In this document: piece by piece, positions 1 through 21,587 of the stretch
Layout: every line of letters starts with the position of its first letter
How positions within the stretch are numbered: position 1 is the first letter of the stretch
Source: a virus
Strand: one strand, 5' to 3'
DNA length: 32,185 bases
Virus record (IMG/VR): IMGVR_UViG_3300005935_000073
Span: 1 to 32,185 of that record
Program-made: the position numbers and the translations under genes
Notes under the pieces: generated by a model
The model's database searches: none
What the model was told of the DNA's origin: nothing
The model's input: the letters and a program-made list of their open reading frames with translations, nothing else

Positions 1-383
1 GGTTCGCATGTAAATGTATTCCCATTCACGAACGTTTTTACACCGAAGTTCTCAGCACCATAGATTTTGTCGCTTGTTACTCCCTTGACAGCCCATCCGT
101 AAACAGTAAGGTTGCCGGTGATAGTAAATGCAACACCAGTTCCGGTATTATACACCGATACAATCGGGTCTGCGGCGGTTGCGGCTGTCCAATTGGCCTT
201 CGTGAGTGTTACCTTCTCACCGCCGTTTGTAGTGATTTCAGTTATAGATGCATTGACTGTTGCATCTGTGATTGTTAAATCATTTGAAAATAAAATAAGT
301 TCTTTGTCTTCAGGAGTTGCATTATCAATAAACACAGCATCATACATTTCCTGAACACCTTCAATAACCATCTGACCAGCCAT
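1..383 (-). CDS. Phage virion/tail protein, C-terminus cut by window edge
   Basis: An open frame starts at an ATG preceded by AAAAGGAG with 6 nt spacing and runs off the left edge after 127 visible residues. The stretch LILFSNDLTITDATVNASIT resembles a motif I know from small phage tail or virion surface proteins, where an LxLFxNxxTPxD-type strand is followed by an F/I-TE segment. The rest is Thr/Val/Gly-rich and predicted to be beta-structured. It lies just downstream of the LamG-bearing tail protein, separated by 12 bp, so it is probably part of the same tail-tip or fibre module and co-transcribed. No catalytic motif is visible. The family assignment rests on motif resemblance only, and the missing C-terminus could change the picture. 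Confidence 0.6.
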   Translation of the reverse strand, partial: MAGQMVIEGVQEMYDAVFIDNATPEDKELILFSNDLTITDATVNASITEITTNGGEKVTLTKANWTAATAADPIVSVYNTGTGVAFTITGNLTVYGWAVKGVTSDKIYGAENFGVKTFVNGNTFTCE

Positions 384-395
384 AATATGCTCCTT

Positions 396-1847
396 TTAAT
401 CGAGTGAAATTGTGATATCTCCAATATCAAGAGACACGAAATCATATTTTGTGATTGCTATTGCTTCATCTAATGCTCCATGAAATAATATATTTCCTGT
501 TGTCAATGCATCTGCTAATAAAAATTTAGATATATCCCCCCAAACATCCGTTGCTGTGGATGATTCAAGTACATCAGTATTTACTGATTCTCCATCTGAA
601 GCGGCATCCCAGTTATTTATCAATGTTCTGGCATATCCTGATGCCGGTTCTGATACTGTTGAGCCTGTATCTGTATCAGCAATTGCACTGGTTGTGAATC
701 CCATATAAATATTCGTTGGTGGAGTGAATGCTGATCCCTCAAACAGATGGTCAAGAGTTGCATTTGCCAAGTAATTTGAACTGCCATTCTTTTTGTATGT
801 GATTTCAAGTTCATAAAGTTTAATGTCAACAGATGCTTCTGATTCAATTATCTTTGCAGGACTCCAGTCACCATAAGCAATAATATTTCCAGTCAGTAAT
901 GTGGCAGTATCAAGAACAGCCCAACCATATGCTACTCCCCAGTCAGCAGAAGGAGTTGGAAATGAATATAATGTGTTATTTACAGTGCTTCTTCCTGAAG
1001 CTGATGCGAAATCATCACATGATATTCTGGCAAAATTGCTACCACCTGCCAATTCATCATTATATATAGCTGTAATTTCGGCAGAAGTTAATGCTCTATT
1101 GTAGATGCGAACGTTGCAACCGTTACCTTTGAAATCCCTTCCAGATATATCGCTGCCAATCCTTACTGAGTGGGATGTGGCAGGAAAAAGTGATGGACTA
1201 TTAGAAGTGCCAACACTGACACCGTTTAAATAATATTCCCAATCAGTCAAATCATGGGTAAGAGCGAGATGTTCCCATTTATTTCTCTGGAAATTAGGGG
1301 CGTTTTTAGTTAAACTTATAGCTCCTGAACCATCATCAAATAAAACTCTGAATCGCTTGTCATTATATAATTGGAAAAATACAAGATCACTAAATCCATT
1401 AGAAATGGCTACTAAGCCCGATGGGTCTGAAGAGCCATCTCCAGTTTGGTATACCCACAATGAAACAGAAAAGGGAGTATTAAGAGCAAAATCTGATGAA
1501 GATGCAACTTGAATATAATCTGTCGTCCCGTTAAACACAGTCGCCCTATCCGCTCTACCATCAGGAGCATTTGCAAAACTGGGAGCATTCGCCGGAGTGC
1601 CATCATTATTATTAGCTGTTAAATCCTGAAATACTCCAGCAGAATAATTGTTTTCAGCAAGTGTCAAATGTTCAACAAACCCATCTTGTGTTGACCCTAA
1701 TATTTCCGATATGCTTCCCCCTGTATCAGCATCTACCACATAATCAGTTGTCATGGTCAGGAACAGCCCTGATGGTCTTGTATATACACCATTGCCAAGA
1801 GTATGGTCAAGAAGTTTATTCTCCATGTAGTTTGATAATTGTCCCAT
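396..1847 (-). CDS. Tail fibre-like protein with LamG/concanavalin A-like domain
   Basis: The product has 483 residues. I chose the ATG at 1847 because AAGGAA lies just upstream; a TTG precedes it by one codon. Residues about 64-268 form a LamG/concanavalin A-like jelly roll (FSVSLWVY near 127, WEHLALTHD near 191, a WEYYLNG strand near 203, VRIYNRALTSAEI near 246), a fold that usually binds glycans. The flanks hold a known small phage tail domain: SNYMENKLLDHTL begins one copy and SSNYLANATLDHLF near 357 begins a second, complete copy ending at DITISLD. The first copy is interrupted by the LamG domain and resumes at about 270 (NFARI, WGVAYGWAVLDTATLLTGNI). The protein is therefore a tandem fibre domain with a lectin-like insertion. 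It probably contacts the host surface. Role is inferred; domain recognition is fairly sure. Confidence 0.78.
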   Translation of the reverse strand: MGQLSNYMENKLLDHTLGNGVYTRPSGLFLTMTTDYVVDADTGGSISEILGSTQDGFVEHLTLAENNYSAGVFQDLTANNNDGTPANAPSFANAPDGRADRATVFNGTTDYIQVASSSDFALNTPFSVSLWVYQTGDGSSDPSGLVAISNGFSDLVFFQLYNDKRFRVLFDDGSGAISLTKNAPNFQRNKWEHLALTHDLTDWEYYLNGVSVGTSNSPSLFPATSHSVRIGSDISGRDFKGNGCNVRIYNRALTSAEITAIYNDELAGGSNFARISCDDFASASGRSTVNNTLYSFPTPSADWGVAYGWAVLDTATLLTGNIIAYGDWSPAKIIESEASVDIKLYELEITYKKNGSSNYLANATLDHLFEGSAFTPPTNIYMGFTTSAIADTDTGSTVSEPASGYARTLINNWDAASDGESVNTDVLESSTATDVWGDISKFLLADALTTGNILFHGALDEAIAITKYDFVSLDIGDITISLD

Positions 1848-1857
1848 CAATTATTCC

Positions 1858-2283
1858 TTATTGAACAGTTGGATCAGGTTCTCTGAGTCTGAGTCTGAAA
1901 TTAGCCGCCATGAGATCAGATGTTCCATATTTTGTTGCTGGAGTGACTTTCCCACCAGCCTTAAAGAAAACTGAATGAGTGACTCCTGTTGTTCCCAAAT
2001 ACAGTGTATGAAGACCTGAACTTTCAAGAACTGATTTTAATGCATTCAAGTTTACCAGCATAGTTGCCACACTTGTTGCACTGATTTGACATTGAAGTGA
2101 GAGGTCTCTTGCTTTGAAATAAATATCATTTGCAAGAACATGCTCTTCTTCACCATCTTCATCTAACCAGTCTTCAGCAGTTTTGCCTTTTCTCTGAAGT
2201 AAATCAAGATTCCCACTGACAGAATTCACAGTGACTCCATATACTGTTTTTAAATTACTTCCATCAAGTCTGTAATTTGCCAT
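1858..2283 (-). CDS. Tail-tip associated protein (distal-tail-like position)
   Basis: This 141-residue protein starts at an ATG overlapping the tape-measure stop codon (TAATG), so translation is coupled to the tape measure. In siphovirus tail operons this slot is usually held by a distal tail or tail-tip protein. Nothing in the sequence is catalytic: it is a mixed beta-rich chain with an N-terminal YGVTVNSVSG segment, an acidic DEDGEEE patch near residue 42, and a C-terminal strand FRLRLREPD. It is shorter than classical Dit proteins (about 200-300 residues), so it may be only a reduced hub or a minor tail protein. The family is not recognised with certainty, and function is inferred from position alone. 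Confidence 0.6.
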   Translation of the reverse strand: MANYRLDGSNLKTVYGVTVNSVSGNLDLLQRKGKTAEDWLDEDGEEEHVLANDIYFKARDLSLQCQISATSVATMLVNLNALKSVLESSGLHTLYLGTTGVTHSVFFKAGGKVTPATKYGTSDLMAANFRLRLREPDPTVQ

Positions 2284-5144
2284 TATGCAACTCCCATTGA
2301 ACGTAATATTTCAGTATTGGTTGAAAGTTTTCTATCAATAGATTTCAGAAATTCAGTATTATCTGCAATCCTTGTTGTTTCTTCCAACATATCATCCATG
2401 AGAGCAACAGAATTCCTGACTTCTCTCATATCGATTCTCATTGCATTGATGTTTCCTTCAAGAAGTCCGGCAGTCTGCTCTGTTATTCCTGCAATTGCTC
2501 CTGTTAATCCTTGTGGAGAACCAAAACCTTCATCATCTTCATCTCCGAATAATTGACCCAAACCAAGTGCATCGAATATTTTTTTAGACCCCACTATTCC
2601 TTGTCTGAGAGCATTAGATAATATATCAATTTCTCCTTCATCTAATCCATTTGATTCAAGAGCATCTGAAAGGGAGATATACCATTCATCAAGGAATCCT
2701 TCCATAATTTGCCTGTTGAATGATTGCATCAAAGCATTCTGCATTATTTGTTCAAAACTCTGAGCAAACACTTCAGCAGAACTTAATCCTGATGCAAATC
2801 CATCTGCAATTCCATCAGCAATTGAGTCAGCAGTTGTTCCTGTCAATTGTAGATGCAACTGGTCTGTAATCTCTTTGATTGCTATATTCTGAGCATGGAG
2901 ATTCTCAGGAGTCAATAAAGTGAAAGTTCCATCACCAAGTTTTGCATATTCAGCAACCAACTCTTGAAGTACAGGGATTGTGTCTTTCATTAATTGAAGC
3001 GACCTTGTGAGTGGTTCAATTGTTTTGTTTGGGTCTCGCATCGCTTTCTGTGATTCATCGGAATTCATAGCATCTAACATTGACTGAACCATGTTCCAAC
3101 CAAATCCTGTTGAAACATCCTCATTTCTCTCATATTTACTCTTGCTTGATGCTCCCATAATAGTGCTTAAAAGACCAACTCCAGATGATACTTGTCCAAG
3201 AATATTGCCTGATGTAATAGCTGTTGCCAGACTGGAAATTCCTCTTGCCATCCCTCCCATTGTATTGAGTGTTTTTGCAAGGTTTTCATCCAGACCTGTG
3301 ACAATATTAGCAAGATGGTCAAAGGCATCTCCAATCTCCCTTATATGTCTGATTGTTCTTTGAGCCATATCATCTTCAACTTCACCAATACGCTCAAGAA
3401 GTATTTCCTTTTCATCGGCAAGCCATTCTTCAGATTTAAGTTCTTCTTTGAGTCTTGCAAGATATTCTTTTAGTCTTTCATCAGTGAATCTGTGATATGA
3501 CTTCAGGAGATTTCTGTATTTCTTATTGTGTATTTGGAGTTCTTCTCTTGCTAATTTTTTATTAAGAGCAATTAAGTCATTAAGGTCTTTCTTTTTTCTT
3601 TCCTTCTCTCGTTTGTCTGTTAATTTGTTAGCATCTTCAGTTTCTTTTTCAAACTGCTTCATCTGTTCTTTGGCTTTTTCAATTTCTTCCAGTCTGGCTT
3701 CAGCATCAGCCCTTCTTTTGTCAGACGCTTTCTTCTCATTGTCAGCTTCAGTTTTGTTTCTGTCTGTGACTCTATCTTTCACCGCTTGAATCTGTTCCTC
3801 TATTTCAAGCTGTCTTGCAATAATATCATTTATTAGTTTGTGTTTAAGCTGTGCACCAACAAGACTCTTTTCCCCAAGCACATAAATGGAACGAAGTCTC
3901 TTTTCAAGGTCTTCAATGCCAAGACCAGCCCCTTCAATAGCAGTTTTAGCTCTTTTGACTTTTGAGCCAACTGGCAAAGCTGTTGCAAGTCCTTTGTTTG
4001 TGAGAGCTTCATTGAGTTCTTCTCTTAATGTTGCTTTTTCAAAGGCTTTATTCAGACCAGACACCATGCTATCAATAATATCAAGTGTAGCATCCCCAAA
4101 ATCAGCCAGTTCAGCCTTAATATTATTCCAGAATATCTTTGTTTTGTTTCCAGTTTCCTCAAGTTGCAGTGCAAGAGCATCATTCTTTGAACCAACTGAA
4201 TCAATCATTTCTCCATATGCATCGGCAAAATCCCTTCCTTCATCAGCACCAAGAGCCAGTAGACCGATTAATCCTCTGACATTAGGAAGAAGTTTTCCAA
4301 GAATCTTGTCAGAGCCGCCTGTTTTCTCATTCAAGTCCTTCAGGAAGCCTGTGAGTCCCTTTGCTCTCAGTCCTGCTGTACTCCACTCAATACCCAACTT
4401 TTCAGCCATTTTGGCGGCATCTTCGGAAGGTCTCACAAGAGATGTCAGGAAGCCCCTTATCGCTGTGAAGAATATTTCAGGTCTGACAGTTTTTGTTCCA
4501 ACAGAAATTGCAGTTGTCAAATCAGCAAATTCAAGTCCAACCTGAGATGCAAGTCCTGTCACCATTCCAATATTAGTTGCAAGCTGTTGCATGTTAATTT
4601 TACCGAGTCGAACTGTGGTAAATAGCTTATCAGAGATTTGTTCAGCAGTCCCTGCTTGTTTCCCATATGCATTCATAATGGAAGTCAGGGCATCAGCAGT
4701 TGTGAATGTGTCAGTCAGACCAGCAGTTGCCAATTCAGCAGATACTCTGAGAACATCCAGAGATTCAGCAACATCTGTGATTCCTGCTGATATTATCTGA
4801 TATTCTGCTTTTGCAAGCTGTTCAGCAGTCTGTGGGAGGATTCTTGTCAATTCAAGAATTTTATCAGAGACTCCTTCAATATCCTTTGCAACATCATCAG
4901 ATATTGTTGAGACCTCAATCATTGCTTTCTTGTAATCTCTTGAGAATTTATACATCTCAGCACTGATTTTCCCAAATGCAATAGCTCCACCAATCGATAG
5001 ACCGGCAAACACATCCATTGTGGAGATGTTCTTAGTCAATCCGGCAAGAATCCCTTTGACTGCCAATGCTCCACTTTTTACTCCAGAAGGGTCAATCCCT
5101 GTTTTGAAGAACAGAGCATCCCCACCACCAACATTCAATGGCAT
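2283..5144 (-). CDS. Tail tape measure protein (TP901-type core)
   Basis: This 953-residue protein is the longest in the window. The N-terminal third carries the TP901 tape-measure core: a Gly/Ala hydrophobic stretch (VFAGLSIGGAIAFG, near 44-57), then YKKAMIEVSTISDDVA, the helical TAEQLAKAEYQIISAGI and a TADALTSIMNAYG-like segment. A central region (about 370-600) is very rich in Lys/Glu and predicted coiled coil. The C-terminal part has Gly/Ala-rich amphipathic helices around GQVSSGVGLLSTIMG and a helical tail. The protein sets tail length and is expected to line the tail tube lumen and pass into the host envelope on infection. The start has GAGGTG upstream. It follows the chaperone genes with a glycosyltransferase gene intervening, which is unusual. 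I see no lysozyme or peptidase domain. Confidence 0.93.
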   Translation of the reverse strand: MPLNVGGGDALFFKTGIDPSGVKSGALAVKGILAGLTKNISTMDVFAGLSIGGAIAFGKISAEMYKFSRDYKKAMIEVSTISDDVAKDIEGVSDKILELTRILPQTAEQLAKAEYQIISAGITDVAESLDVLRVSAELATAGLTDTFTTADALTSIMNAYGKQAGTAEQISDKLFTTVRLGKINMQQLATNIGMVTGLASQVGLEFADLTTAISVGTKTVRPEIFFTAIRGFLTSLVRPSEDAAKMAEKLGIEWSTAGLRAKGLTGFLKDLNEKTGGSDKILGKLLPNVRGLIGLLALGADEGRDFADAYGEMIDSVGSKNDALALQLEETGNKTKIFWNNIKAELADFGDATLDIIDSMVSGLNKAFEKATLREELNEALTNKGLATALPVGSKVKRAKTAIEGAGLGIEDLEKRLRSIYVLGEKSLVGAQLKHKLINDIIARQLEIEEQIQAVKDRVTDRNKTEADNEKKASDKRRADAEARLEEIEKAKEQMKQFEKETEDANKLTDKREKERKKKDLNDLIALNKKLAREELQIHNKKYRNLLKSYHRFTDERLKEYLARLKEELKSEEWLADEKEILLERIGEVEDDMAQRTIRHIREIGDAFDHLANIVTGLDENLAKTLNTMGGMARGISSLATAITSGNILGQVSSGVGLLSTIMGASSKSKYERNEDVSTGFGWNMVQSMLDAMNSDESQKAMRDPNKTIEPLTRSLQLMKDTIPVLQELVAEYAKLGDGTFTLLTPENLHAQNIAIKEITDQLHLQLTGTTADSIADGIADGFASGLSSAEVFAQSFEQIMQNALMQSFNRQIMEGFLDEWYISLSDALESNGLDEGEIDILSNALRQGIVGSKKIFDALGLGQLFGDEDDEGFGSPQGLTGAIAGITEQTAGLLEGNINAMRIDMREVRNSVALMDDMLEETTRIADNTEFLKSIDRKLSTNTEILRSMGVA

Positions 5145-5152
5145 GATTCACC

Positions 5153-6616
5153 TCAAGTTATTAATCGCTTTTTGCAGTTTTCCTCATTCCAAATGTCCCA
5201 GCGAATTCTTTCAGGATGCTGACTGTTATGCACTCCAGCATTCATGTATTTCCCGGCTTTGTCATAATCTCCTTTTTCAAAGTAATAGACAGTAAGCCAG
5301 ACAAAAATTTCATCGATTATCATATCAACATGGGAAGCAAGTAATCCTTCCATCTTCCCGGCAGTTTTATTTGCAATTTTGACTCCTTGTTCAATCCATT
5401 TGACAGCATCTTCTCTTTTTTCCTTTGTTGCATACCAATATCCAATATGAAAATGTATCATTGGAAGCCTGTCAGAGAATTCATCAGCTATTTTCTTGAA
5501 TTTCAATGCTCTTTTGATTTCATTATTAGTCACACAAGATGCGACAAGAATATTGAAAATCTCAAGATATGCAAACCAACCATCATTAAATTCACCTTTT
5601 TTCTTGACATCTCTCATCATTTTAATCCATTTATTACTGTATGCCATTACATTTTTATGATCCCTTTCAGTGTGATAAGTTTTAATAATGTGAGTCAGCA
5701 TTTGCAAATTATTGTTATCTTTTTTGTATTCTCTCAGAAGAATTGGAAGTGTTCTATTCATTTTCTCTTTTTTCAGATATTGCTTGCCCTCAAACATATA
5801 TCCAAAATGAAGTAGATTCACATCATTTGCTATAAAATATGGCTCTGTCGGCTGTGGTTTATTATGAGCCGCACCAGTATATAATGGCTTCCCTTCTGGA
5901 TTATCAAATATTCTTGCTTGCTGAACAACAGACCTTTTTATTTTGTCAATAGATAAGATATTAATGACATTCATAAACATTGTTCCAAACTCAGAATATT
6001 CAGGATTTAAAATCATATCCTGAAGAAGATATAAGCTGTCCTGCTCAAGTTGTTCATCTGCATCAATGATAAATATTTTCCTTCCACTTGCCAGATTGAT
6101 TCCATAATTTCTATGTTTTGAGAAGTCAGCTTCCCATTTCTGGAATTCTACAATATCAGCATACTTTTCTGCGATCTGCTGTGTTCTGTCACCTTCCTGA
6201 GTGCATATAATAATCAATTCACACCAGTCCTGATATGTCAGTGGAAGGATTGAGTCAAGACATCTCTGGAGATTTCCTTCTTCCTTACCAACTATCATGC
6301 AGATTGATAGCGATATTTTAGAGTTGACCTGAGTCGGTTCTTGTAGAATATACCAACCTTTACCATGACATTTAGGGCAATTCGTTTCAAATACTTCGAT
6401 GTCTCCTATTGTTTCAGTCTTAAAATCAACTTCACCTGGTTCTGTTTGTTCTATCTTGCCATTTACGCATCCTTCAAATTCACACTCTATCGCGTTGGGG
6501 ACATATCCAGTCCCTTTACATACAGGACAGACTTCGGTTGATGTTTCTGCTCCATTTTGCACTTCAATAGTGCCTTCAAAACAGTTTGGATTTGTGCATT
6601 TTGGTTTTTCCATCAT
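5153..6616 (-). CDS. GT2 glycosyltransferase with N-terminal DnaJ-like zinc fingers and helical C-terminus
   Basis: The N-terminal 90 residues hold two C4 zinc modules: Cys7/12/30/33 and Cys45/50/80/83, with CPVCKGTGY and CPKCHGKGW matching the CxxCxGxG style of DnaJ and related zinc domains. From about residue 101 a GT-A family 2 glycosyltransferase begins (ISLSICMIVGKEEGNLQRCL), with the metal/nucleotide-sugar motif DADE at 185-188. The C-terminal half (about 290-487) is alpha-helical and TPR-like. The start at the first ATG has AAGGAG 7 nt upstream and overlaps the preceding stop. Enzymes of this family transfer a sugar from a nucleotide-sugar donor; the acceptor is unknown. Its place between tail chaperone and tape measure genes is atypical and suggests a tail protein or host-envelope substrate, but that is inference. 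Confidence 0.85.
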   Translation of the reverse strand: MMEKPKCTNPNCFEGTIEVQNGAETSTEVCPVCKGTGYVPNAIECEFEGCVNGKIEQTEPGEVDFKTETIGDIEVFETNCPKCHGKGWYILQEPTQVNSKISLSICMIVGKEEGNLQRCLDSILPLTYQDWCELIIICTQEGDRTQQIAEKYADIVEFQKWEADFSKHRNYGINLASGRKIFIIDADEQLEQDSLYLLQDMILNPEYSEFGTMFMNVINILSIDKIKRSVVQQARIFDNPEGKPLYTGAAHNKPQPTEPYFIANDVNLLHFGYMFEGKQYLKKEKMNRTLPILLREYKKDNNNLQMLTHIIKTYHTERDHKNVMAYSNKWIKMMRDVKKKGEFNDGWFAYLEIFNILVASCVTNNEIKRALKFKKIADEFSDRLPMIHFHIGYWYATKEKREDAVKWIEQGVKIANKTAGKMEGLLASHVDMIIDEIFVWLTVYYFEKGDYDKAGKYMNAGVHNSQHPERIRWDIWNEENCKKRLIT

Positions 6617-9509: not shown

Positions 9510-10592
9510 TTATGACCATACAGTTGCAAGAACATACATATTGAAACATTCATCAACACGTGTCCATGAAGGGAATGCATTGCATTCACCCTTTGTGAAT
9601 TCCTGAACAGGATCAACATCAGAGAATTTCGTTATTAAGACACCATCTGCCTTGCTCTGAGTAACCTGTTTCGGTGGATTATCCTCTTCAGCGATTGGAC
9701 CGTAGAGCATTCTTCCAACAGCGAGATCGGGAATGAAAGTCACATATCCAGTTGTCCACGGATTTGCTGTGGTCTGAGTATGATCATCATCCTCAATCGT
9801 AATGGTCTGATCGATGATAAGAATTGTCGGAAGAGCACGGGCTTTCAACATATCATTTGCCTGTTCTTTTGTAGGAGTCAATTTAATTCCTGCTCCAGCA
9901 TAAATAAAACCATAAGTGTAGTTCTTGGTCTCAGTTGATGTTGAGAAATATCCCCAATCAGTTTCATTCATGAGAGCATATTTCAAGGTCACACCATATG
10001 TTTTGGCAGTAGCTACGGTTGTAATAAAATCAGTGATTGGAGTTGTAGTTCCAACTGCACCAGACCACGCTATTGCCGCGGCTGATTTATTAGCACTTGG
10101 CATCTGGAAATCAATCGCAGATTCAGTCACAATTCCATTGTTTACAGATTTTGTGAGTGTCAGTGCCGGATAAGAAAGGATTTTTAAGGCTATCCATTCA
10201 AGTCTTCCTCTGACTGATTTGTGGACAAAATTTACATCATCAAACACAAGTTTCAGGAGTTTATCTTGGTCAGGATTTGCCATGCGTTTTAACTGATTAT
10301 ATTTGTTCAAATCAGTTTCCTGCATAACTCTCTTGACTCGTTCTGAAGGAATCGTTCCGGTCAGCTTGTCGATGACTTTGCGTGTTTTGATTGGAGCGGA
10401 TGAATTATAAGATACAATATCAGCCGCAACAGGTCTTCCCTCAGAACCGATCAGAGTATCATACTTCAATTCATCTGTGGATTCGGCAGGGAAGAAATCG
10501 GGATAATAAAAAAGCAGTGGTAAGAGATTATTTATATAAGTCCCAATGGACTTTTTATTAATCTCGCTAAGTAAACTATATTGCATACCCAT
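9510..10592 (-). CDS. Major capsid protein, phage capsid E type (HK97 fold)
   Basis: This 360-residue protein has the hallmarks of the phage major capsid protein E family: an N-terminal arm (YYPDFFPAESTDELKYD), the basic E-loop-like region SSAPIKTRKVIDKLTGTIPS followed by RVKRVMQETDLNKYNQL, a spine helix, and a late GYVTFIPDLAVGRMLYGP segment. The protein forms the icosahedral shell. It is preceded by decoration and scaffold genes and followed by connectors, the standard order. A good AAGGAG site lies 8 nt before the ATG. The C-terminus ends in a domain rich in aromatic and hydrophobic residues (NMYVLATVWS). Length is normal for the family. Confidence 0.88.
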   Translation of the reverse strand: MGMQYSLLSEINKKSIGTYINNLLPLLFYYPDFFPAESTDELKYDTLIGSEGRPVAADIVSYNSSAPIKTRKVIDKLTGTIPSERVKRVMQETDLNKYNQLKRMANPDQDKLLKLVFDDVNFVHKSVRGRLEWIALKILSYPALTLTKSVNNGIVTESAIDFQMPSANKSAAAIAWSGAVGTTTPITDFITTVATAKTYGVTLKYALMNETDWGYFSTSTETKNYTYGFIYAGAGIKLTPTKEQANDMLKARALPTILIIDQTITIEDDDHTQTTANPWTTGYVTFIPDLAVGRMLYGPIAEEDNPPKQVTQSKADGVLITKFSDVDPVQEFTKGECNAFPSWTRVDECFNMYVLATVWS

Positions 10593-13578: not shown

Positions 13579-14031
13579 TTAAATATAATTCAATTCAATG
13601 TCTATTTTTTTAACACTTGGATATAATCCAGCAGGATAAGGCATATCATACTTTATATCCCATTCTTTTTTTAATGCAAACATAAAATCTTTGCTTATAT
13701 CCTGAGGATGTAACAATATTAAGTTAGCAAGTTTTTCTATTAAGCTCTTTTTATTATACCACTTAATAGTAATAGCACTTTCAAGAAACATTTTATCAGT
13801 TTCATCTGCGGCTTCATATTCAGGTGTCATGTGTAAGAAATCAAGTTCAGTTCTTATAAATTCTTTCGGATGTTTATGTGCTTCAATATATCTATTCAAG
13901 TCAGACTCAGATAATCTCCATTCTCCCATTATTTGAAATGCTTCGGGGAATATTTTCTTGAATTGTTTTTCTGTTGGGATAGATTCACTAAGAATTTCTG
14001 ACACTGATTCTTTCGTAAATAGCTTTTCCAT
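13579..14031 (-). CDS. Hypothetical protein, charged and helical
   Basis: This 150-residue protein is not recognised. It is predicted to be mostly alpha-helical with many Glu and Lys residues (EKLFTKESVSEILSESIPTE at the start; ADETDKMFLESAITIKWYNK in the middle) and ends VKKIDIELNYI. No Cys pairs, signal peptide or membrane segment are present. A strong AAAGGAG site lies 7 nt before the ATG. It follows the zinc-finger nuclease-like gene by 15 bp, ahead of the moron-type unit, so it is the last gene of the accessory stretch transcribed from the cassette. Size and charge would fit a DNA- or protein-binding accessory factor, but nothing in the sequence specifies one. Confidence 0.6.
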   Translation of the reverse strand: MEKLFTKESVSEILSESIPTEKQFKKIFPEAFQIMGEWRLSESDLNRYIEAHKHPKEFIRTELDFLHMTPEYEAADETDKMFLESAITIKWYNKKSLIEKLANLILLHPQDISKDFMFALKKEWDIKYDMPYPAGLYPSVKKIDIELNYI

Positions 14032-14046
14032 TGTTATTCTCCTTTG

Positions 14047-15159
14047 TTAAAATGCGAATGATGGTTGAAATGATTGTGATGCTAATCCATCACACTGTTC
14101 GTTATTATTCTGTTTCTGTGCAAATGCAATTACTTGAATGTCAGTTATTGAATATATTCTCGGATTATCCTCTTGCTTTAGTCTTGCAAACCAATAATTA
14201 GGAAACTGTCTCATTATTTTGGATTGCCGAGCAATGTCTTTTTTAATTTGTTTTTTGTTTCTCCAATGATATGGTTCGTCCCATTCGATAATCATTTTAT
14301 GCTCATGGTTTATATAATCAAGGTGATATCCAAGTGTCCTATATTCACCTTTTTTGTTTTCTGATTCCGCATGTTGCCCAAGTGTATTATTTGTTTTGTC
14401 AAACTGATTAAACCACTTGCATGCTCGCTTGTTATATGCTACATGTAGTTGTGGACTTTGTGGATTTTCTCTTATATAATCCGAATAACAGTTTGGTGAG
14501 CAAAATTTACCCCCGCCTCTTTTTATTTCTGAGGGAACTACTGTAAATGTTTTATTACAGTATTTACACCTCTTGATAATTCTTGTTATTTTGTTTTTGT
14601 CGGCACATTGTTTAGAACAGAAACTCATGTTTTTTCTTGATGCTGATACATATTTTTCCTCCCCACACCGCTGACATATTATTTTCACCTTGTCCATTCT
14701 GATACTATCAGAAAAACATGTTTTAGAACAGAACGGCTGATTTCTGCTTATATATGGTACTTTTTTTGTTTTTCCACATTGCTTGCAAGTTATTTTATAT
14801 TTATGATTCACTTTGTTTTTATAGTAGTCACTCCCATATATCTTTATTTTTATTTGTTTACATTTGATACATAATTTGCAGTTTCTGTTCTTTGCTTCAA
14901 ATAAAATCCCACACTCCTTGCATCTTATTTTTACTGGCTTCTTCCACATAGATTCCATTTGACATTTCTTTGAACAATATTTATTTGGTATCGATGCATA
15001 TTTAACTTTAAATATTTTTCCACAGTATAAACAATTTCTTGAGACAGGTGGTTTTTTAAGAAATAATGAAAAACATTTTTTATTACAATATTTTTGATTT
15101 ATTCTTGATGGTGATACCATTCTCTTTGCCCCACACTGCTTGCATGTTATCTCAACCAT
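14047..15159 (-). CDS. Six zinc-finger protein with Vsr-like/EDxHD nuclease-like C-terminus
   Basis: The 370-residue protein starts with six tandem zinc modules of the form CxxC-x(15-18)-CxxxC: Cys6/9/25/29, 43/46/62/66, 80/83/97/100 (variant spacing), 125/128/144/148, 162/165/181/185 and 198/201/220/224. Each CxxCG is followed by a basic loop and a C-S/N-K-x-C knuckle. The C-terminal part contains GYHLDYINHEHKMIIEWDEP, then YHW and KKDIARQSK. This arrangement (D, then E-x-D-E-x-x-H, then D-x-x-R) resembles the Vsr-like EDxHD nucleases such as the homing endonuclease I-Bth0305I. I infer a free-standing homing endonuclease or DNA-cleaving enzyme. The start overlaps the upstream gene by 8 nt, unusual for a recent homing insertion. 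Confidence 0.72.
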   Translation of the reverse strand: MVEITCKQCGAKRMVSPSRINQKYCNKKCFSLFLKKPPVSRNCLYCGKIFKVKYASIPNKYCSKKCQMESMWKKPVKIRCKECGILFEAKNRNCKLCIKCKQIKIKIYGSDYYKNKVNHKYKITCKQCGKTKKVPYISRNQPFCSKTCFSDSIRMDKVKIICQRCGEEKYVSASRKNMSFCSKQCADKNKITRIIKRCKYCNKTFTVVPSEIKRGGGKFCSPNCYSDYIRENPQSPQLHVAYNKRACKWFNQFDKTNNTLGQHAESENKKGEYRTLGYHLDYINHEHKMIIEWDEPYHWRNKKQIKKDIARQSKIMRQFPNYWFARLKQEDNPRIYSITDIQVIAFAQKQNNNEQCDGLASQSFQPSFAF

Positions 15160-16051
15160 AATACTTCACCATTCTTGCAACATACTTGTCAACATCCTGC
15201 ATGAACTTCTTCGCATCATCTCCATATTTCAGTTTACAAATATCCTCGTGCGTCTGTCTCATTCTATCTTTCAGTTCTACATCTTCTTTTTCATACTGTG
15301 AGAATATCTGATAATACGCATTTGCAATCAGGACAGGCATATCTCTCATTGTCTTTGATCTATCTTTTGAAATGCTGTTCTGATTATCCAGCGTATAAGG
15401 CACTGAATATACTGTTGAAGGGAATATATACTTCACCAAACCTTCTTGAATCATGATATTGGCTGTCAGGCTGTCTTCTGCATAATCAAGTCTCTTAACA
15501 CCTATTCCTTCCAACATTTTCTGTACTTCTGTTATTGCTTTAATAACCATCTCTTTTTTGAGAATTGTATTATTAATCGCAACAAGCCCGGAGTGATTAA
15601 CAAACTGACTGACAACATACTGCTCTGGATTGAGATATTGAGGAATATTCCAAACAACTCCATTTGGCTTTCCATTGACAAATATTTGTTTCGGAATTGT
15701 AATCATTGTGTCCGGTAACTTTGAGTCAAGATCAAACTTCAGTCCTTCAAGATATGAGAATGAGAATGGATCGTCAATATCAGTCATGAGAATATCACTA
15801 TACTTTGCAAGTTCAACGCCAAATTTCCTTGCATATAATTGACCTTTGTTCTCTAAATAAGATACAACTGAGACATCAAGATGCTTACAGTCTTTTTTCA
15901 GTCCAAATAACAGTTCAAGAGTCCTGTCAGTAGAACCATCATTAACGAATATGAATTCAGCTTCCTTATCCAGATATGGCATGAGTTCTTTTGTTCTGTT
16001 GAGAATATGTTCTTCTCCATTATAAACTGGGATGATAATCGATATTTTCAT
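15152..16051 (-). CDS. Family 2 glycosyltransferase
   Basis: This 299-residue protein has a GT-A domain: MKISIIIPVYNGEEHI at the N-terminus, the nucleotide-sugar-binding motif VNDGSTDRT at 36-44, ENKGQLYARKFGVELAKYSD, and the metal-binding DIDD at 91-94. The C-terminal part (about 180-299) is helical and acidic, as in many polysaccharide-type GT2 enzymes. No transmembrane segment is visible, so it is likely cytoplasmic. The stop of the next gene upstream overlaps its start (ATGA), so it is coupled to the radical SAM gene. The substrate cannot be read from sequence. It belongs to a cassette with two further glycosyltransferases, an epimerase and two methyltransferases, so it probably adds one sugar of a short glycan. 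Confidence 0.88.
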   Translation of the reverse strand: MKISIIIPVYNGEEHILNRTKELMPYLDKEAEFIFVNDGSTDRTLELLFGLKKDCKHLDVSVVSYLENKGQLYARKFGVELAKYSDILMTDIDDPFSFSYLEGLKFDLDSKLPDTMITIPKQIFVNGKPNGVVWNIPQYLNPEQYVVSQFVNHSGLVAINNTILKKEMVIKAITEVQKMLEGIGVKRLDYAEDSLTANIMIQEGLVKYIFPSTVYSVPYTLDNQNSISKDRSKTMRDMPVLIANAYYQIFSQYEKEDVELKDRMRQTHEDICKLKYGDDAKKFMQDVDKYVARMVKYYG

Positions 16052-17136
16052 ATATGCCTCCTACACATCTTGTCTTCAATAAACACTTTCTCGATTATTT
16101 CATTGTATGCTCCAAACGTACATCTTGGACACTGTTGAGGATCGATGTTGTTCATCATATCCTTATGGAATTCACTGCCCCAGACTTTCAATATCTCTCT
16201 CACATCAGGGTCATGCTTGCAGAGAATTAAATCTTTATTACCTCTCATATCGAAACAGAGATGCACATTCCCATCTGCTCCGAATGTTGCTAAGAGTGGC
16301 AATGCCCGGCACTTCTTGAAATTAACTTTTCTTTTAAGATTCGGATTAAATTTATGCCTGACTCCATACACATGAAAATTCTTTGTTTCCAGCTTCATGC
16401 TCTCAGTAATCTGCTTCTCAATATTTATCAAGTCATCGGAACTATATTCAAGCTGTGGTTCATCTGTTGTTATGTTATCAGTGCAAGCTGGTCTGAGATG
16501 AAAGTCATGTGCGCCATATAACTTTGCAAGTCTTGTTGCTTGATATATTTCATTTGCATTTAATGGATGAAGTAAATATTTATATGCAATGTCACAATTT
16601 GTTCCCAATTCATCAACTTTTAATCTGAGCTTGCTTATGTTATCAAGAACATTAGCAAATCCCCAATGTTTAATTCCTTTTACTTTCATATATGTGTCTT
16701 CATATCCAGCATCCATTGAAAATCCACACCATCTCGCTGTTCTGGCAATCGTTTCAATGTGTTCATCGGTCATTAGTGAGCCATTTGTGATAACTCCAAT
16801 CTCAATCCCATTCTTGTGTAATCGTTCAAGGAAACTGTTAAATGCCGGATTCATTAATGGTTCGCCACCTCCGGCAACACATGTTGACTTTATTCCCCAC
16901 TCCTTGTAAAAATCCGCGAGATCAAGTAGATGTTTCTCTGTCATAGTGTGTTTCTTGCCAGCCATTGTGTCAACTGCATTGCACCAAATACAGTTGTAAT
17001 TACATTTATTTGTCGGATCGGTATCAGCCACTATCGGCGGCATGAAGTTGCCATCTGCACAGCCTTGCAACTGTTCTGGATACATTAATACTTTCATTGA
17101 GTTGAAAGGATTATACGGATTTGTCCATTCTTTCAT
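16048..17136 (-). CDS. Radical SAM enzyme with SPASM-like C-terminus
   Basis: I start this at the ATG with AGGAG 7 nt upstream; a TTG two codons earlier is less likely. Length 362. The radical SAM cluster motif is C45-N-Y-N-C49-I-W-C52 (CX3CX2C), with GGGEP at 89-93, ITNGSLMTDEHI and a beta-alpha barrel pattern. The C-terminal third contains Cys in FKKCRAL, VHLCFDM and LILCKHD, plus CPRC and CRRH pairs, suggesting auxiliary iron-sulfur clusters of the SPASM type. SPASM enzymes often modify peptides or build modified sugars. It sits between the epimerase and a glycosyltransferase, overlapping both, so a role in making or attaching an unusual sugar, or modifying a peptide carrier, is likely but unproven. 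Confidence 0.85.
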   Translation of the reverse strand: MKEWTNPYNPFNSMKVLMYPEQLQGCADGNFMPPIVADTDPTNKCNYNCIWCNAVDTMAGKKHTMTEKHLLDLADFYKEWGIKSTCVAGGGEPLMNPAFNSFLERLHKNGIEIGVITNGSLMTDEHIETIARTARWCGFSMDAGYEDTYMKVKGIKHWGFANVLDNISKLRLKVDELGTNCDIAYKYLLHPLNANEIYQATRLAKLYGAHDFHLRPACTDNITTDEPQLEYSSDDLINIEKQITESMKLETKNFHVYGVRHKFNPNLKRKVNFKKCRALPLLATFGADGNVHLCFDMRGNKDLILCKHDPDVREILKVWGSEFHKDMMNNIDPQQCPRCTFGAYNEIIEKVFIEDKMCRRHI

Positions 17137-17827
17137 TAGCAAACTCCTGTATGTATTGTTTTGATGTTTTGACTGGATATATATTGGAAAGTTTTCCTGC
17201 CCCTATCCAACGTCTATAAGTAAGTGCATCCGGTCTCACTGTATATTTTACACCAAGAATTTCTGCTATCTCATTTATAGAAACAGCTTTTTCCCCACCA
17301 ATATCTATTGTATCATTATGAGTACCCGCCCATATTATATTTATGACTGCTTCAGCAACAGCATTAACAGTGATAAATTGAACCTCTGAATCTCTTGTCA
17401 ACCAGAGTGGAGTTTCATCAATTAAGTCTTTCACAACACCTTTTTTCATGCCTTCACCTATCATCGCAGAACATCTCAGGATTATATAGTTACTGGAATT
17501 CTTTTTGACAATCTGCTCTGCAAGTTTCTTATGAAACCCATAAAACGAATCACCATATACGTCCGATGATGATATATAAATGTATTTCTTGATTTTAAAA
17601 TCCGCAAACGTGTTCATAACAGATACAACTGATTCAACAAAATCCCTGTTCGGATGTTCTTCAGCCCAATACTTTCTGCTGTTTCCGTTTGCATTAATAA
17701 AGACATCAAATACTTCCTCATGAACATGATCTCTGTACGTGTTTCTCGTTATCTGAACAGCATCTGGGAACTGTTTGCACAGTGCCTGTCCGAGAAATCC
17801 ATTTGCTCCAAGTATTCCAATTTTCAT
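17111..17827 (-). CDS. NAD-dependent epimerase/dehydratase (extended SDR)
   Basis: The 238-residue product begins with a Rossmann fold: GANGFLG at 7-13 is the nucleotide-binding GxxGxxG. SSSDVYG at 86-92 and YGFHK at 96-100 (YxxxK) form the catalytic region typical of nucleotide-sugar 4-epimerases and 4,6-dehydratases. It is short for the family (usual 300-340 residues), so the C-terminal substrate-binding part is reduced. Its start overlaps the stop of the CgeB-like gene (ATGA), and its end overlaps the radical SAM gene. It would supply a nucleotide sugar, for example an epimerised or deoxy sugar, to the cassette glycosyltransferases. Exact reaction cannot be told. Confidence 0.85.
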   Translation of the reverse strand: MKIGILGANGFLGQALCKQFPDAVQITRNTYRDHVHEEVFDVFINANGNSRKYWAEEHPNRDFVESVVSVMNTFADFKIKKYIYISSSDVYGDSFYGFHKKLAEQIVKKNSSNYIILRCSAMIGEGMKKGVVKDLIDETPLWLTRDSEVQFITVNAVAEAVINIIWAGTHNDTIDIGGEKAVSINEIAEILGVKYTVRPDALTYRRWIGAGKLSNIYPVKTSKQYIQEFANERMDKSV

Positions 17828-18804
17828 GTCAGCCCCTCAATAGCTTTGAATCGATTTATGTATGTATGATCTTTGAGAGTGCGCGCGTGACCGGCTTTGG
17901 CTATCATTTTCCTCGTGGCTTCAAACTCAAGCAGATATTTTATTTTTTCAATCGTCAAATCAATAGTATTATACGTTATAAATTCGGTATCAGTGAAACA
18001 TTCCCTGATCGCCGGACTGTCCTGCGTCAACAGCAACGCACCGCATCCAGTAGCTTCAAAATCTCTGGCATTCACCTGAATCTTCTGAACTCCTGATGAA
18101 GCGGCTGACAAATTCAATACAATCTTGCTCTGATTATATATCTTAATCAGTCCAGCCTGAGAGATTCTTTCTGTATCTCCCCAGCCTTTCCCGAAACATT
18201 TCACATCAATACCGGATTCTCTGAGTTTCGTAATAAATTCTTCTCTGCCTTTGTGTTTACTACCAATGAAAGACACATCATATATTCTTTCCAGACCCAT
18301 ATCACGATATAACAAAGGATTGCAAGCCCATTCACTCAGGACAGAATTGTATCCTGCAGATAGCCGTTTCTCGTGACTCGGAGTGTCAGTTGTGATAATT
18401 GTATCAAATAGACTCCAGACAGGCTCTTCTGCCTCATATCTCCATGAATCATCGGCATTCCAGATGTATTTCTTGACAGGCAGATTCTTCAACACATCTT
18501 TGTCAATCCAGTCATGAAAGTGGAAATAGAACATTAGATCAGGATTGTAATAATAAACTGCTTCTTCCAACATCTTTGACATTTCCTCTGCTCCATATAT
18601 TTGATATAATTTCATATAATCAAAATATATCATGGAATATCCCATATTAAAGAATGTCTTGTAAAAATTATGATGCTCATAACTCAATCCCCACTCTGGA
18701 TTTCCATAATCATATTTGATTCCAACATACAGAATAGTTTTCTTGCCGGGAAGGATTCTTGTTTTGATTGCTTCATCTACGAGTGTTTCTCTTGCTATTG
18801 TCAT
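17824..18804 (-). CDS. CgeB-like glycosyltransferase
   Basis: This 326-residue protein (ATG chosen; a TTG precedes it) resembles CgeB-type glycosyltransferases: KKTILYVGIKYDYGNPEWGL at the start, NPDLMFYFHFHDWID, WNADDSWRYEAEEP, then a conserved YDVSFIGSKHKGREEFITKL and RDFEATGCGALLLTQDSPAI near residue 250. The final helical tail contains EATRKMIAKAGHARTLKDHT, the usual end of this family. It is a GT-B-type enzyme without membrane segments. The start overlaps the preceding methyltransferase stop by about 32 nt, so it is part of the cassette operon. Family members glycosylate diverse surface polymers; the acceptor here is unknown. Confidence 0.85.
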   Translation of the reverse strand: MTIARETLVDEAIKTRILPGKKTILYVGIKYDYGNPEWGLSYEHHNFYKTFFNMGYSMIYFDYMKLYQIYGAEEMSKMLEEAVYYYNPDLMFYFHFHDWIDKDVLKNLPVKKYIWNADDSWRYEAEEPVWSLFDTIITTDTPSHEKRLSAGYNSVLSEWACNPLLYRDMGLERIYDVSFIGSKHKGREEFITKLRESGIDVKCFGKGWGDTERISQAGLIKIYNQSKIVLNLSAASSGVQKIQVNARDFEATGCGALLLTQDSPAIRECFTDTEFITYNTIDLTIEKIKYLLEFEATRKMIAKAGHARTLKDHTYINRFKAIEGLT

Positions 18805-19450
18805 CAACTTTCCCCTTTACAAATTGAGTGTCAAATATTGGTGTATCTGGTTTTTCAGCTTTCAGTCCCATTGAATCCATCCATGCCTTGAATAATGTTC
18901 CACCTTCAACTTTAGCTTCATAAGTAGCCATATAATCAATAATATCACGTTCCGCATCAGCATCAGACTTGATTTTCTTGTCTTTGATGCCCCTGAAACT
19001 TATATTCGGCCACTGTTCAAACATCATATATTTACCTTCATTGAATCCAACTATTTGAAACATCCATAACATTTTATTAACATCAAACCCATCATAGTGT
19101 GTGCCGAATTGAGCTGTATCCTGCGGACCGAAAATATGCCTGTACCAGAACTGTTGCTCTCTTACGCTTTTTGATTCTTGCATTTTCTTAATAGTTCCCC
19201 AGAAGTCAGGAACTAAAACATTGATTATTCCTTTATTCTTGAGCCACTTATAAAATTTACGGAGTTGCATTATTGCAACATGGCGGGGGAAATGTTCAAA
19301 AACAGCCATCAGCAGAATTTCATCTATTGAATTGTCTGGATAATCCAAGTCTTCAATTTGAGAGTGTATATCAACTTTCGCATTGTCCATGACATCTATA
19401 TTCACCCAACCATCCAAATAATTCATTCCACAACCAAGATGAAGTTTCAT
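18773..19450 (-). CDS. SAM-dependent methyltransferase, class I
   Basis: This 225-residue protein starts MKLHLGCGMNYLDGWVNIDV, where LHLGCG is the SAM-binding motif I and the Asp of NIDV contacts the ribose. DNSIDEILLMAVFEHF matches motif IV with HF near residue 52-56. The C-terminus is helical. It follows the second methyltransferase directly and overlaps the CgeB-like glycosyltransferase gene. Methyltransferases of this shape in sugar clusters often methylate sugar hydroxyls, carboxylates or terminal residues of the glycan. Specific substrate not visible. The missing extra domain and short size are normal for this family. Confidence 0.82.
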   Translation of the reverse strand: MKLHLGCGMNYLDGWVNIDVMDNAKVDIHSQIEDLDYPDNSIDEILLMAVFEHFPRHVAIMQLRKFYKWLKNKGIINVLVPDFWGTIKKMQESKSVREQQFWYRHIFGPQDTAQFGTHYDGFDVNKMLWMFQIVGFNEGKYMMFEQWPNISFRGIKDKKIKSDADAERDIIDYMATYEAKVEGGTLFKAWMDSMGLKAEKPDTPIFDTQFVKGKVDDNSKRNTRR

Positions 19451-20166
19451 CAGCTTTCCCCTATTGATATGAGCCAGCTTCCAAATGGTTTGCCTTCTTT
19501 CTTTTTCCGCTCATTGATTGCGATCTGAACCGGAATAAGTGCATGATTCACTCTCTTAAGATACATTGCTTCAGAGACCAAGCCAATAGTTTCCTCATGA
19601 ATTGGTTCAATGCCTGACTTGCGGAAGTGTTCATGCAAACTCCAGAAATCATTCTCAACTCCATATTCCCATGTTTCCTTTGCTATTGACATTTCTTTCG
19701 CAAACATATATGCATGAGACCCTGAATATGGGACTCCAACAATAACATATTTCCCAATCTCAGCCATCTTTTTAAACATAGCAATTATTTCATGCTGATT
19801 AAAATGCTCAACAGTTCCCATGCTGAAAACAATATCATAATTGTTGGATTTCTTGCACTCAAATAAATTATATTTCTGAAAATTACAGTTCTCAACTTCC
19901 ATGTCACTAGCAATCCTTTTCGCAAGGTCAATACTTCCCTGTTCAATGTCAATCCCTGTGCAATTAGCACCATGTTTTCCCAGTTCTATGCTGTATTGAC
20001 CTGTTCCTGTTCCAACTTCCAAAACAGACTTTCCTTTCAGATCAATATGTTTCATTAACAGTTCAACAAACTCCACTCTCTGAGTGCTTCCAGCAGGCTC
20101 ATCCATGATTCTTTCTGTTGATAGATTCTTATAATTATCCCAGATCGAGTTCCATACTTTTGTCAT
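19450..20166 (-). CDS. SAM-dependent methyltransferase, class I
   Basis: The 238-residue protein has a clear class I fold: SVLEVGTGTGQYSIEL at about 47-62 (motif I), GANCTGIDIEQGSIDLAKRI (motif II), NYDIVFSMGTVEHFNQHEII (motif IV/V), and IGKYVIVGVPYSGSHAYMF. It differs from the neighbouring methyltransferase in all motifs, so the pair is not a recent duplication. Stop of this gene and start of the next share one base. It begins two bases after a small zinc-ribbon gene. In context, it probably methylates a sugar or carrier in the cassette product; an rRNA or DNA substrate is not supported by any extra domain. Confidence 0.82.
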   Translation of the reverse strand: MTKVWNSIWDNYKNLSTERIMDEPAGSTQRVEFVELLMKHIDLKGKSVLEVGTGTGQYSIELGKHGANCTGIDIEQGSIDLAKRIASDMEVENCNFQKYNLFECKKSNNYDIVFSMGTVEHFNQHEIIAMFKKMAEIGKYVIVGVPYSGSHAYMFAKEMSIAKETWEYGVENDFWSLHEHFRKSGIEPIHEETIGLVSEAMYLKRVNHALIPVQIAINERKKKEGKPFGSWLISIGES

Positions 20167-20168
20167 AA

Positions 20169-20360
20169 TTATTCCTTTGCAAAGTCATTATAATTATATT
20201 CTTTGCCTATTTCACCAGAATACATTGTAAATGTTGTTCCACATATATCACAAGTTATTTGAGGAGGTGGATGTTCAATATTTTTGCATTTATGGCAAAC
20301 ATAAATAATATAATCTCCAGCGAATACACCATTTTTCATAGGTTTTATTTTTTCAGTCAT
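20169..20360 (-). CDS. Small zinc-ribbon protein
   Basis: The 63-residue product carries Cys22/Cys25 (VCHKC) and Cys37/Cys40 (CDICG), a four-Cys zinc ribbon. It ends with an acidic/Asn-rich tail (GEIGKEYNYNDFAKE). Its start overlaps the stop of the small membrane protein gene (ATGA), and its end is two bases from the methyltransferase start, so it is a genuine operon member. Zinc ribbons of this size usually act as small protein- or nucleic-acid-binding adaptors. The role within the sugar cassette is unknown; I cannot name a family. Confidence 0.7.
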   Translation of the reverse strand: MTEKIKPMKNGVFAGDYIIYVCHKCKNIEHPPPQITCDICGTTFTMYSGEIGKEYNYNDFAKE

Positions 20361-20593
20361 GACACGATCCTTTTCGCATAGTCTTTCCTGAGTTCTACAT
20401 CCCTAACCCAACCTCTTTCGAATCTTCTTCTCTCTTTCCTTGCATATCCAGCCTGAGATACATATGCATCGATTGCCAACAGGACTTCAGATGCAATGTT
20501 CATCTTGAACTCAGTCCATCTCAGTCTCCAGCTTATTGAGAAGAAATACAGAACAAGAACCACTCCCAGTGCAGTCAGTTGATAGGTCATCAT
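20357..20593 (-). CDS. Small membrane protein, one N-terminal transmembrane helix
   Basis: This 78-residue protein has one hydrophobic segment (residues about 5-22, QLTALGVVLVLYFFSISW) followed by an Arg-rich region (KERRRFERGWVRDVELRKDY), placing the basic tail on the cytoplasmic side by the positive-inside rule. It starts with two ATG codons, the first overlapping the glycosyltransferase stop. It may tether other cassette proteins to the inner membrane or act as an accessory to a membrane-bound glycan step. No family is recognised. Position within an ATGA-coupled operon argues that it is real. Confidence 0.68.
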   Translation of the reverse strand: MMTYQLTALGVVLVLYFFSISWRLRWTEFKMNIASEVLLAIDAYVSQAGYARKERRRFERGWVRDVELRKDYAKRIVS

Positions 20594-21573
20594 TCTGTAT
20601 CTCCGGCAATAACATTTCCAAGTGTTGTTTCAATGATATTAGCAAAAGCCTTGACCTGAACATCCTGAGTCCAACCTTTGTTGATGATATACTGTCTGTT
20701 GAACTCTTTCTCTGTCAGCCCACCAGCAATAAATCTGTCAACAGCTTCCTTAATAGTATTGAATCTCATGACGCCATCATACTGCTTGTCAGCACCATAG
20801 AAATTGTGAATCACTGGCTCAATTCCCCTTGCCATTGCTTCAATAGCCGAAACATTATGACCTTCATGGACTGATGTGAGCAAGAAAAAATCCTTGTCGG
20901 CATAGAACTTGTTCATGTCCTTGACATTGCCATGCATCACAACTTTTCCCACAAGATCGAGCTCTCTAATCATATGGTTGATATATATCTCATATCTGGC
21001 TTCCTGATATGCTCCGGCAACATGCAGTTTGAATTCATCGTCTTTGTCAATCAATGCTCTGAATATCTGGAATAGCATTGCAGGATTTTTCTTGTGAGAT
21101 ATTGCCCCAACAGAGCAGATTTTCTTTCCAGAGGTCTCTTTGTTCAGCACAATATCAGAGATATCAATGCCATTAGGAACAACTGTATTTGTGATTCTGT
21201 TATTGATATTCATCTCATTATGGAATGTATTGATTATTTCCTTAATATGATCTGCAACATAAATAACATGATTGACATAATCCCATTTTATTTCTCTGGG
21301 ATATCCTGCAAGAGCTTCATAGGAATGGAGTCTGACAATAACTTTCTTGTCATGTTTGTTCTTTGTTGTTTCAAGATACTTGGTTATCATCATAGCTGAC
21401 TCATTTGCCCATTCACACCATATCACATCTGCAAAACCAACTGCTCTGATAACATCATCATTGCTTCTGATAATATATACCTTGATTTCATAATACTTCT
21501 GAAGTGGTTCGATCCATTGAAGGAAATTATCCATTCCTTCAAGGCATGTGACTGCAATTCGTGTCTTTCTCAT
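20590..21573 (-). CDS. Family 4 glycosyltransferase
   Basis: The 327-residue protein is a GT-B enzyme of family 4. VVPNGIDISD (131-140) begins the C-terminal Rossmann domain, KICSVGAISHKKNPAMLFQI fits the usual G-x-x-x-x-KN segment, and E237-G-H-N-V-S-A-I-E245 is the EX7E motif that binds the nucleotide-sugar. FKLHVAGAYQ and VVMHGNVKDMNKFYADKDFF are typical of this family. The protein is cytosolic by sequence. It is the first gene of the glyco-cassette in transcription order, after the 65-residue gene. GGAG precedes the ATG. Acceptor unknown, but it probably transfers an early sugar of the cassette product. Confidence 0.88.
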   Translation of the reverse strand: MRKTRIAVTCLEGMDNFLQWIEPLQKYYEIKVYIIRSNDDVIRAVGFADVIWCEWANESAMMITKYLETTKNKHDKKVIVRLHSYEALAGYPREIKWDYVNHVIYVADHIKEIINTFHNEMNINNRITNTVVPNGIDISDIVLNKETSGKKICSVGAISHKKNPAMLFQIFRALIDKDDEFKLHVAGAYQEARYEIYINHMIRELDLVGKVVMHGNVKDMNKFYADKDFFLLTSVHEGHNVSAIEAMARGIEPVIHNFYGADKQYDGVMRFNTIKEAVDRFIAGGLTEKEFNRQYIINKGWTQDVQVKAFANIIETTLGNVIAGDTE

Positions 21574-21587
21574 GGTTTCTCCTTTTG

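Follow-up and report, generated by a model that had tools for sequence, protein, structure and literature searches.

The gene for protein P0001 raises the question of what a lectin-like domain does inside one of two copies of a small tail domain, and whether such insertions recur at this site. We analysed the gene in its window, the whole 32,185-nucleotide stretch of the virus record IMGVR_UViG_3300005935_000073, together with its relatives (Table 1). A preliminary description had located the gene correctly; it lies on the minus strand, with its ATG at 1847 and its stop codon at 396-398, and stop codons occur throughout the plus strand.

Table 1. Coordinates of the tandem-Gp80/LamG gene, its parts and other genes of the window
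Feature	Position	Strand	Remarks
Tandem-Gp80/LamG tail protein gene	396..1847	-	483 aa, protein P0001, stop codon included
Gp80 copy 1, N-terminal half	1704..1847	-	Residues 1-48; profiles, alignment, AlphaFold2
Insert with LamG/Laminin_G_3 lectin-fold domain	1044..1703	-	Residues 49-268
Pfam core of Laminin_G_3 within the insert	1074-1532	-	Residues 106-258
Gp80 copy 1, C-terminal half	792..1043	-	Residues 269-352; profiles, alignment, AlphaFold2
Gp80 copy 2, unsplit	399..785	-	Residues 355-483; profiles and structure match to 8jou_a
Upstream neighbour, 141 aa, Dit position	1858..2283	-	phrog_6305 tail protein; gene order
Tape measure protein	2283..5144	-
Downstream tail-cassette gene, cut by the window's end	3..383	-
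Major head protein	9510-10592
Portal	24851-26320
Large terminase	26336-27646

That description read the protein as two copies of one tail domain, the first opened at residue 49 and resumed at residue 270 around a LamG jelly roll. The duplication is confirmed by three stretches matching the Pfam family Gp80 (PF23140, named 'Podophage GP4 fiber I protein gp80'; E 3.2e-41, 141.1 bits against a cut-off of 27, best stretch 356-481) and by the likeness of the copies, which are 30% identical over 127 aa when the halves of copy 1 are joined (E 3e-17). The Laminin_G_3 match (PF13385) between these halves is likewise far above its cut-off (E 6.4e-26, 91.8 bits vs. 27.6). A profile of the unsplit domain, built from six unsplit phage homologues, none of them from the window, matches residues 1-47 at model positions 1-47 (E 3e-11), residues 255-350 at model positions 34-126 (E 1.5e-10) and residues 357-482 at model positions 5-127 (E 2.8e-27). 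The second of these matches extends backward into the insert, the true restart being near residue 269. When residues 51-268 are removed, copy 1 becomes a single continuous match (model positions 1-126, E 1.5e-23).

The site of the insert was located in a 35-row alignment of P0001, 24 insert-free tandem proteins and 10 N-terminal fragments (one of which, L271, was aligned to copy 2 and is thus uninformative on copy 1). The insert lies between SISE and GGSNFAR, and the gap falls exactly at a SxxE-PSG-GxYAR loop, where in the tandem relatives a loop of about three residues, commonly PSG, leads into GxYAR or a near variant of it. Profiles and alignment thus place the LamG domain precisely within a loop of copy 1, as proposed, and the split and resume residues given beforehand are right to within one or two residues. 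The insert spans approximately residues 49-268, and its likeness to other LamG domains begins near residue 56-63, close to the start at 64 proposed earlier. The nested architecture is confirmed as real, far beyond chance, with an identical copy in a second contig. Between position 235 and at least position 9283 of the window, this twin contig (IMGVR_UViG_3300025736_000291) has the same sequence, and searching its six frames with the Pfam Gp80 model recovered model positions 2-46, 38-127 and 2-128 (E 1e-8, 5.5e-10 and 2.1e-28, respectively). It diverges sharply inside the downstream gene and ends about where the window ends; positions 1-235 of the window are a clean mosaic breakpoint in the tail-cassette gene.

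AlphaFold2, run on P0001 with the 35 aligned sequences, gave a model with a mean pLDDT of 69.6 and a pTM of 0.62, in which the LamG domain has low confidence because the alignment contained no LamG rows. Both Gp80 copies are predicted with higher confidence (pLDDT 91-97 for residues 1-40, 85 for 41-50 and 83-96 for 271-350 of copy 1; 83-97 for copy 2). The elements of copy 1, H6-17 and E29-33 before the insert and E287-290, E304-312, E322-334 and E348-350 after it, mirror those of copy 2 (H358-370, E381-385, E420-423, E437-445, E453-465 and E479-481). The earlier proposal that residues 1-49 and 270-352 form one domain accordingly stands as regards element order and confidence, both of which resemble copy 2; the packing of the two halves against each other is a prediction. 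It draws, besides these two features, on a match of 221 residues to a chain of the archaeal virus HFTV1, which covers the model range 1-483 and exceeds what copy 2 alone can supply, pointing to contact between the halves. Copy 2 closely resembles 8jou_a (Z 12.1, rmsd 1.5, 125 residues, VIA-align), whereas copy 1 has no separate entry. The matches to 9mt4_K, 9c39_K, 9fko_A and 6hhk_B span the model from residue 1 or 3 to 482/483 with just 107-114 residues, and the two copies may partially exchange strands, with the caveat that match ranges alone do not show which residues are used. When the model was compared with predicted viral proteins, single-domain phage proteins scored best, and some of these carry the name tail protein or minor tail protein.

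Modelled alone, the insert forms a beta-sandwich (pLDDT 69.5, pTM 0.70), with residues 1-48 of the fragment poorly modelled. Of the fold matches listed for it (Z 15.8-17.8), the majority are lectin-like or CBM-type domains of glycan enzymes, including trans-sialidase, AbnA domain 4, NanB and CBM40, and the same list contains PilC pilin, PAPP-A and NTNH. The inserted piece can hence be read as a LamG jelly roll, as first proposed, with a Pfam match above the cut-off and Z scores of up to 17.8 to LamG-like domains. An NCBIfam match of residues 87-269 to the TafC fimbrial protein reaches 40 bits, far under the cut-off of 410. Among the fetched loci, no LamG relative exceeded approximately 35% identity outside the insert's own lineage. 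The LamG domain of a neighbour gene in locus L273, a candidate source of the insert, is among the closest of these (29% identity over 216 aa, E 1e-11), and that of S-B43 is at least as close. A LamG tree, which took in 75 of 199 non-redundant domains and left out L273, was poorly resolved.

Pairwise scores, as opposed to a tree, suggest that the duplication came first and that the LamG domain entered one of the copies later. In two insert-free tandem relatives, L080 and L003, copy 1 finds its better counterpart in copy 1 and copy 2 in copy 2. Copy 1 of P0001 scores 78.6 bits against copy 1 of locus L080 and 59.3 bits against its own copy 2. Copy 2 scores 77.0 bits against copy 2 of L080, with copy 1 of L080 close behind (69.7 bits) and its own copy 1 lower. 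Locus L003 behaves likewise (47.8 vs. 40.8 and 49.7 vs. 40.4 bits).

The extent to which the loop of copy 1 accepts other domains was examined in two sets of loci, both picked by similarity among the matches listed and thus not a random sample. In the set of 423 loci, 269 distinct Gp80-matching ORFs were found, comprising single (n = 201) and tandem (n = 41) forms, single domains in longer ORFs (n = 11) and others (n = 16, made up of the window gene, ends cut short, forms longer by 25-35 residues and weak matches). No further split at the copy 1 loop was found among these 269 ORFs from the loci listed. The set of 448 loci contains 272 Gp80 ORFs and 109 LamG ORFs (E 1e-5 or better), which coincide in one ORF in the window lineage; likewise, among the 48 distinct tandem ORFs in these fetched loci, the window lineage included, only the window lineage has a LamG match. 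To find further domains nested at this loop, we searched with half-domain queries, which do not penalise an insert (best 80 loci per scan), with a tandem profile (best 80 loci of the larger set) and by synteny with the upstream gene; these searches recovered the window lineage alone. A homologue of the upstream gene is present in 23 loci, namely the window lineage and 22 others. In ten of the 22, a tandem gene lies downstream, with one more ORF in between in L436, and in no case does it contain an insert, so that the insert-free relatives that the preliminary description had proposed to compare do exist, even beside the same upstream gene. The other 12 loci showed no tandem match, and one of them (L446) ends right after the upstream gene; two of the upstream-gene loci (L439 and L442) appear to be near-duplicates. 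With one insert in one lineage, and one LamG match in 48 tandem ORFs, the earlier wording of a modular swapping at this loop is not supported.

A search of 392 genomes of one phylum yielded a Gp80 match in 13 at E 0.001, eight of them above the cut-off, and no split at the copy 1 loop was seen in the 10 loci scanned, three weak below-cut-off genomes having been left out. Two Gp80 proteins of this set, from the bacterial genome contigs L182 and L185, are longer by about 80 residues in a different loop, close to model position 93-106, indicating that the Gp80 domain tolerates inserts. These are possible nested inserts at another site of Gp80; they have no Pfam name, and the C-terminal remainder of the domain matches weakly. 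No paper on a LamG domain inside Gp80, or on PF23140, was found among the matches listed in a literature search of titles and abstract starts. Two contigs of this survey merit mention on their own account. A third viral contig (L092, IMGVR_UViG_3300035698_010927) is 100% identical to the first 33 residues of the Dit-position gene and then ends, before the Gp80/LamG gene; the lineage is thus apparently present in a further metagenome as well. A contig binned as Candidatus Lokiarchaeota (L174) encodes a single-copy Gp80 protein in a 144-codon frame (53% in its best segment to the tandem query), representing either a virus of this archaeon or a binning error.

Gene order suggests that the tandem Gp80/LamG protein is located at the tail tip. 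The same order also points to the upstream neighbour as a distal-tail (Dit) gene, an identity for which Pfam, NCBIfam and PDB sequence searches gave no support. The sequence of tape measure, Dit-position gene and tandem Gp80 gene is common to the window and four other loci (L118, L120, L121 and L273), in which the tape measure is approximately 27-32% and the upstream gene 33-51% identical to those of the window. In L118, a Prophage_tail/tail-spike (Tal-like) protein is encoded by the second gene after the tandem gene, and in L429, which has no tandem gene, a gene of this type directly follows the Dit-position gene. From these two orders, the tandem Gp80 gene seems to be an optional element between Dit and Tal; in L431-L433, the ORFs at the corresponding place start like that of L429, as judged by eye. 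LamG domains are encoded next to the tandem gene in five other loci, in the gene next downstream (L273 and L120) or in the gene before it (L003, L123 and L370; Pfam matches for the latter two, with L003 and L123 being close relatives), so lectin domains accompany the tandem gene in a minority of loci. The next downstream gene in L118 and L121 has no Pfam match, a LamG match is lacking from the fetched flanks of most tandem genes, which counts against a tail-tip lectin, and a LamG domain nested inside Gp80 was seen in the window lineage only among the loci examined.

Farther along the window, two further regions were noted. The gene at 5153-6616 lies upstream of the tape measure and has a match to a beta-1,4-glycosyltransferase PHROG (E 1.5e-7), yet homologues with 31-36% identity are found in the corresponding upstream position in L120, L121 and L273; a tail protein may suit its product better than this label. 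Between the minor and major head protein genes, inside the structural module, a block at about 14000-21600 includes an HNH-type match (14047-15159), a GtrB-like match of glycosyltransferase type (15152-16051), a radical SAM gene (16048-17142) and a second match of glycosyltransferase type (20590-21573).

Taken with the nested fold, the order of the tail genes makes it probable that P0001 is a tail-tip (baseplate) adaptor of two Gp80 domains that carries a putative glycan-binding LamG-type lectin in the loop of copy 1, even if the PHROG label of its Gp80 family (phrog_240, 'head protein') speaks against a tail-tip location. The two Gp80 domains would dock on the ring at the tail end, the adaptor perhaps being a trimer that spans a site of six-fold symmetry. 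Pointing outward, the loop would display the lectin while leaving the docking fold unbroken, and the lectin would bind a surface glycan of the host. It could add avidity or make a first reversible contact, as do the inserted carbohydrate-binding modules of 'evolved Dit' proteins. We infer the receptor-binding role of the insert, as well as its place in the virion, from fold and gene order, and the lectin probably helps the virus to grip its host.

LamG folds have many roles, and the pilin, PAPP-A and NTNH domains among the fold matches would also suit an insert that binds no glycan and serves as a structural or stabilising decoration or as a docking surface for another tail protein. The lack of a LamG relative above approximately 35% identity outside the lineage, among fetched loci, fits this view as well. 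We nevertheless consider it unlikely, since sialidases and other enzymes acting on glycans supply most of the fold matches listed, in the form of lectin-like domains, and five further loci have a LamG gene beside the tandem Gp80 gene. An assembly chimera, in which the LamG stretch was wrongly joined during metagenome assembly, would explain why the insert occurs in one lineage only, and the twin contig, identical over the gene, may derive from a related sample. Such an error is scarcely credible, given one open frame across both joins, joins exactly at a loop, the same gene in a twin contig with a different downstream region and an even base composition over the parts (GC 0.38-0.41), which also gives no sign of a recent arrival of the LamG domain.

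The protein might alternatively decorate the neck or head-tail connector in the manner of a whisker, so that the lectin would act away from the tail tip. Gp80-like proteins do occur in phage necks (9mt4_K, Z 8.3; 9c39_K, Z 8.1), several phage records have a single-domain Gp80 gene a few genes after the capsid genes, and the 'head protein' label of phrog_240 agrees with such a site. This placement is nonetheless improbable: in the window and in the 10 relatives, the tandem gene comes after the Dit-position gene (with the further ORF in L436), the tape measure lies upstream in all four relatives checked, and the similar chain of HFTV1 belongs to the tail, being by length its baseplate hub.

The closest functional precedent for the adaptor reading is the evolved Dit of lactococcal and other siphophages; in lactococcal skunaviruses, according to the available portion of PMC10688798, carbohydrate-binding inserts inside Dit help adsorption. 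As far as described in the portions of PMC10688798 and PMC6669499 considered, the two systems share a carbohydrate-binding module inside a structural tail-tip protein whose N- and C-terminal parts align to an insert-free form, and P0001 has such an internal module of sugar-binding type (by fold) and such relatives. They differ in the host domain (Dit there, Gp80 here) and in the module (BppA-like CBMs vs. LamG); moreover, these portions describe many insert groups and a tested function, whereas here there is one insert with a predicted function. No Dit-type Pfam domain matched P0001 at E 1, its core being Gp80. On the best reading, P0001 would work like an evolved Dit on an unrelated scaffold, but is not one. 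The scaffold itself is shared with Gp80 of podophage GP4 (8jou, in which chain 8jou_a is titled 'Fiber I and fiber-tail-adaptor of phage GP4'), by profile for both copies and by fold for copy 2. The GP4 protein is a single 140-aa domain without an insert, in contrast to the fused pair with a lectin in copy 1 found here. Two-copy Gp80 proteins are also encoded by Desulfofustis phage LS06-2018-MD01 (WBK39765.1) and two IMG/VR loci (L118 and L093), in which the short loop, often PSG, stands in place of the insert.

A possible solved parallel is the baseplate hub of HFTV1, which the portion of PMC12494034 considered describes as a trimer with three projecting globular domains and, in its authors' view, a possible role in surface glycan binding. 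The GenBank annotation also gives a carbohydrate-binding domain in HFTV1 gp44 (954 codons; L424:3026-5890), which is taken, by length, to be the 953-residue chain of PDB 9h4p. The two-copy model of P0001 aligns to residues 390-951 of this chain (Z 14.1, rmsd 4.2, 221 residues, VIA-align), a match to which Foldseek lends weak support (E 8.4e-3, prob 0.69, rmsd 29), and sequence profiles gave no match between gp44 and P0001. An internal repeat in gp44 (pairwise E 4e-8, composition adjustment off) apparently consists of a pair of Gp80-fold copies, with a break of about 300 residues in the second; this is our reading and not that of PMC12494034. Unlike in P0001, the apparent insert would lie in the second copy and in another loop, with a weak restart on the C-terminal side (E 0.1).

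The tandem-Gp80/LamG protein adds a new case to a strategy familiar from other phage tail proteins. The principle of the 'evolved Dit', in which a structural tail domain carries a module of sugar-binding type in a loop, is extended by it to the unrelated and widespread Gp80 scaffold, and comparison with dozens of insert-free relatives names the exact loop that accepted the domain. More tentatively, tandem Gp80 might be a general cargo platform at the tail tip of bacterial and archaeal tailed viruses, a trimer over a six-fold site with a lectin on every second domain, to which domains were added independently in different loops: before the YAR strand of copy 1 here, apparently in copy 2 of HFTV1, and in others in the single-copy proteins of bacterial genomes. 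If the HFTV1 parallel is true, bacterial and archaeal viruses arrived at the same solution, and a reason for the duplication of Gp80, with one structural copy and one display copy, becomes testable.
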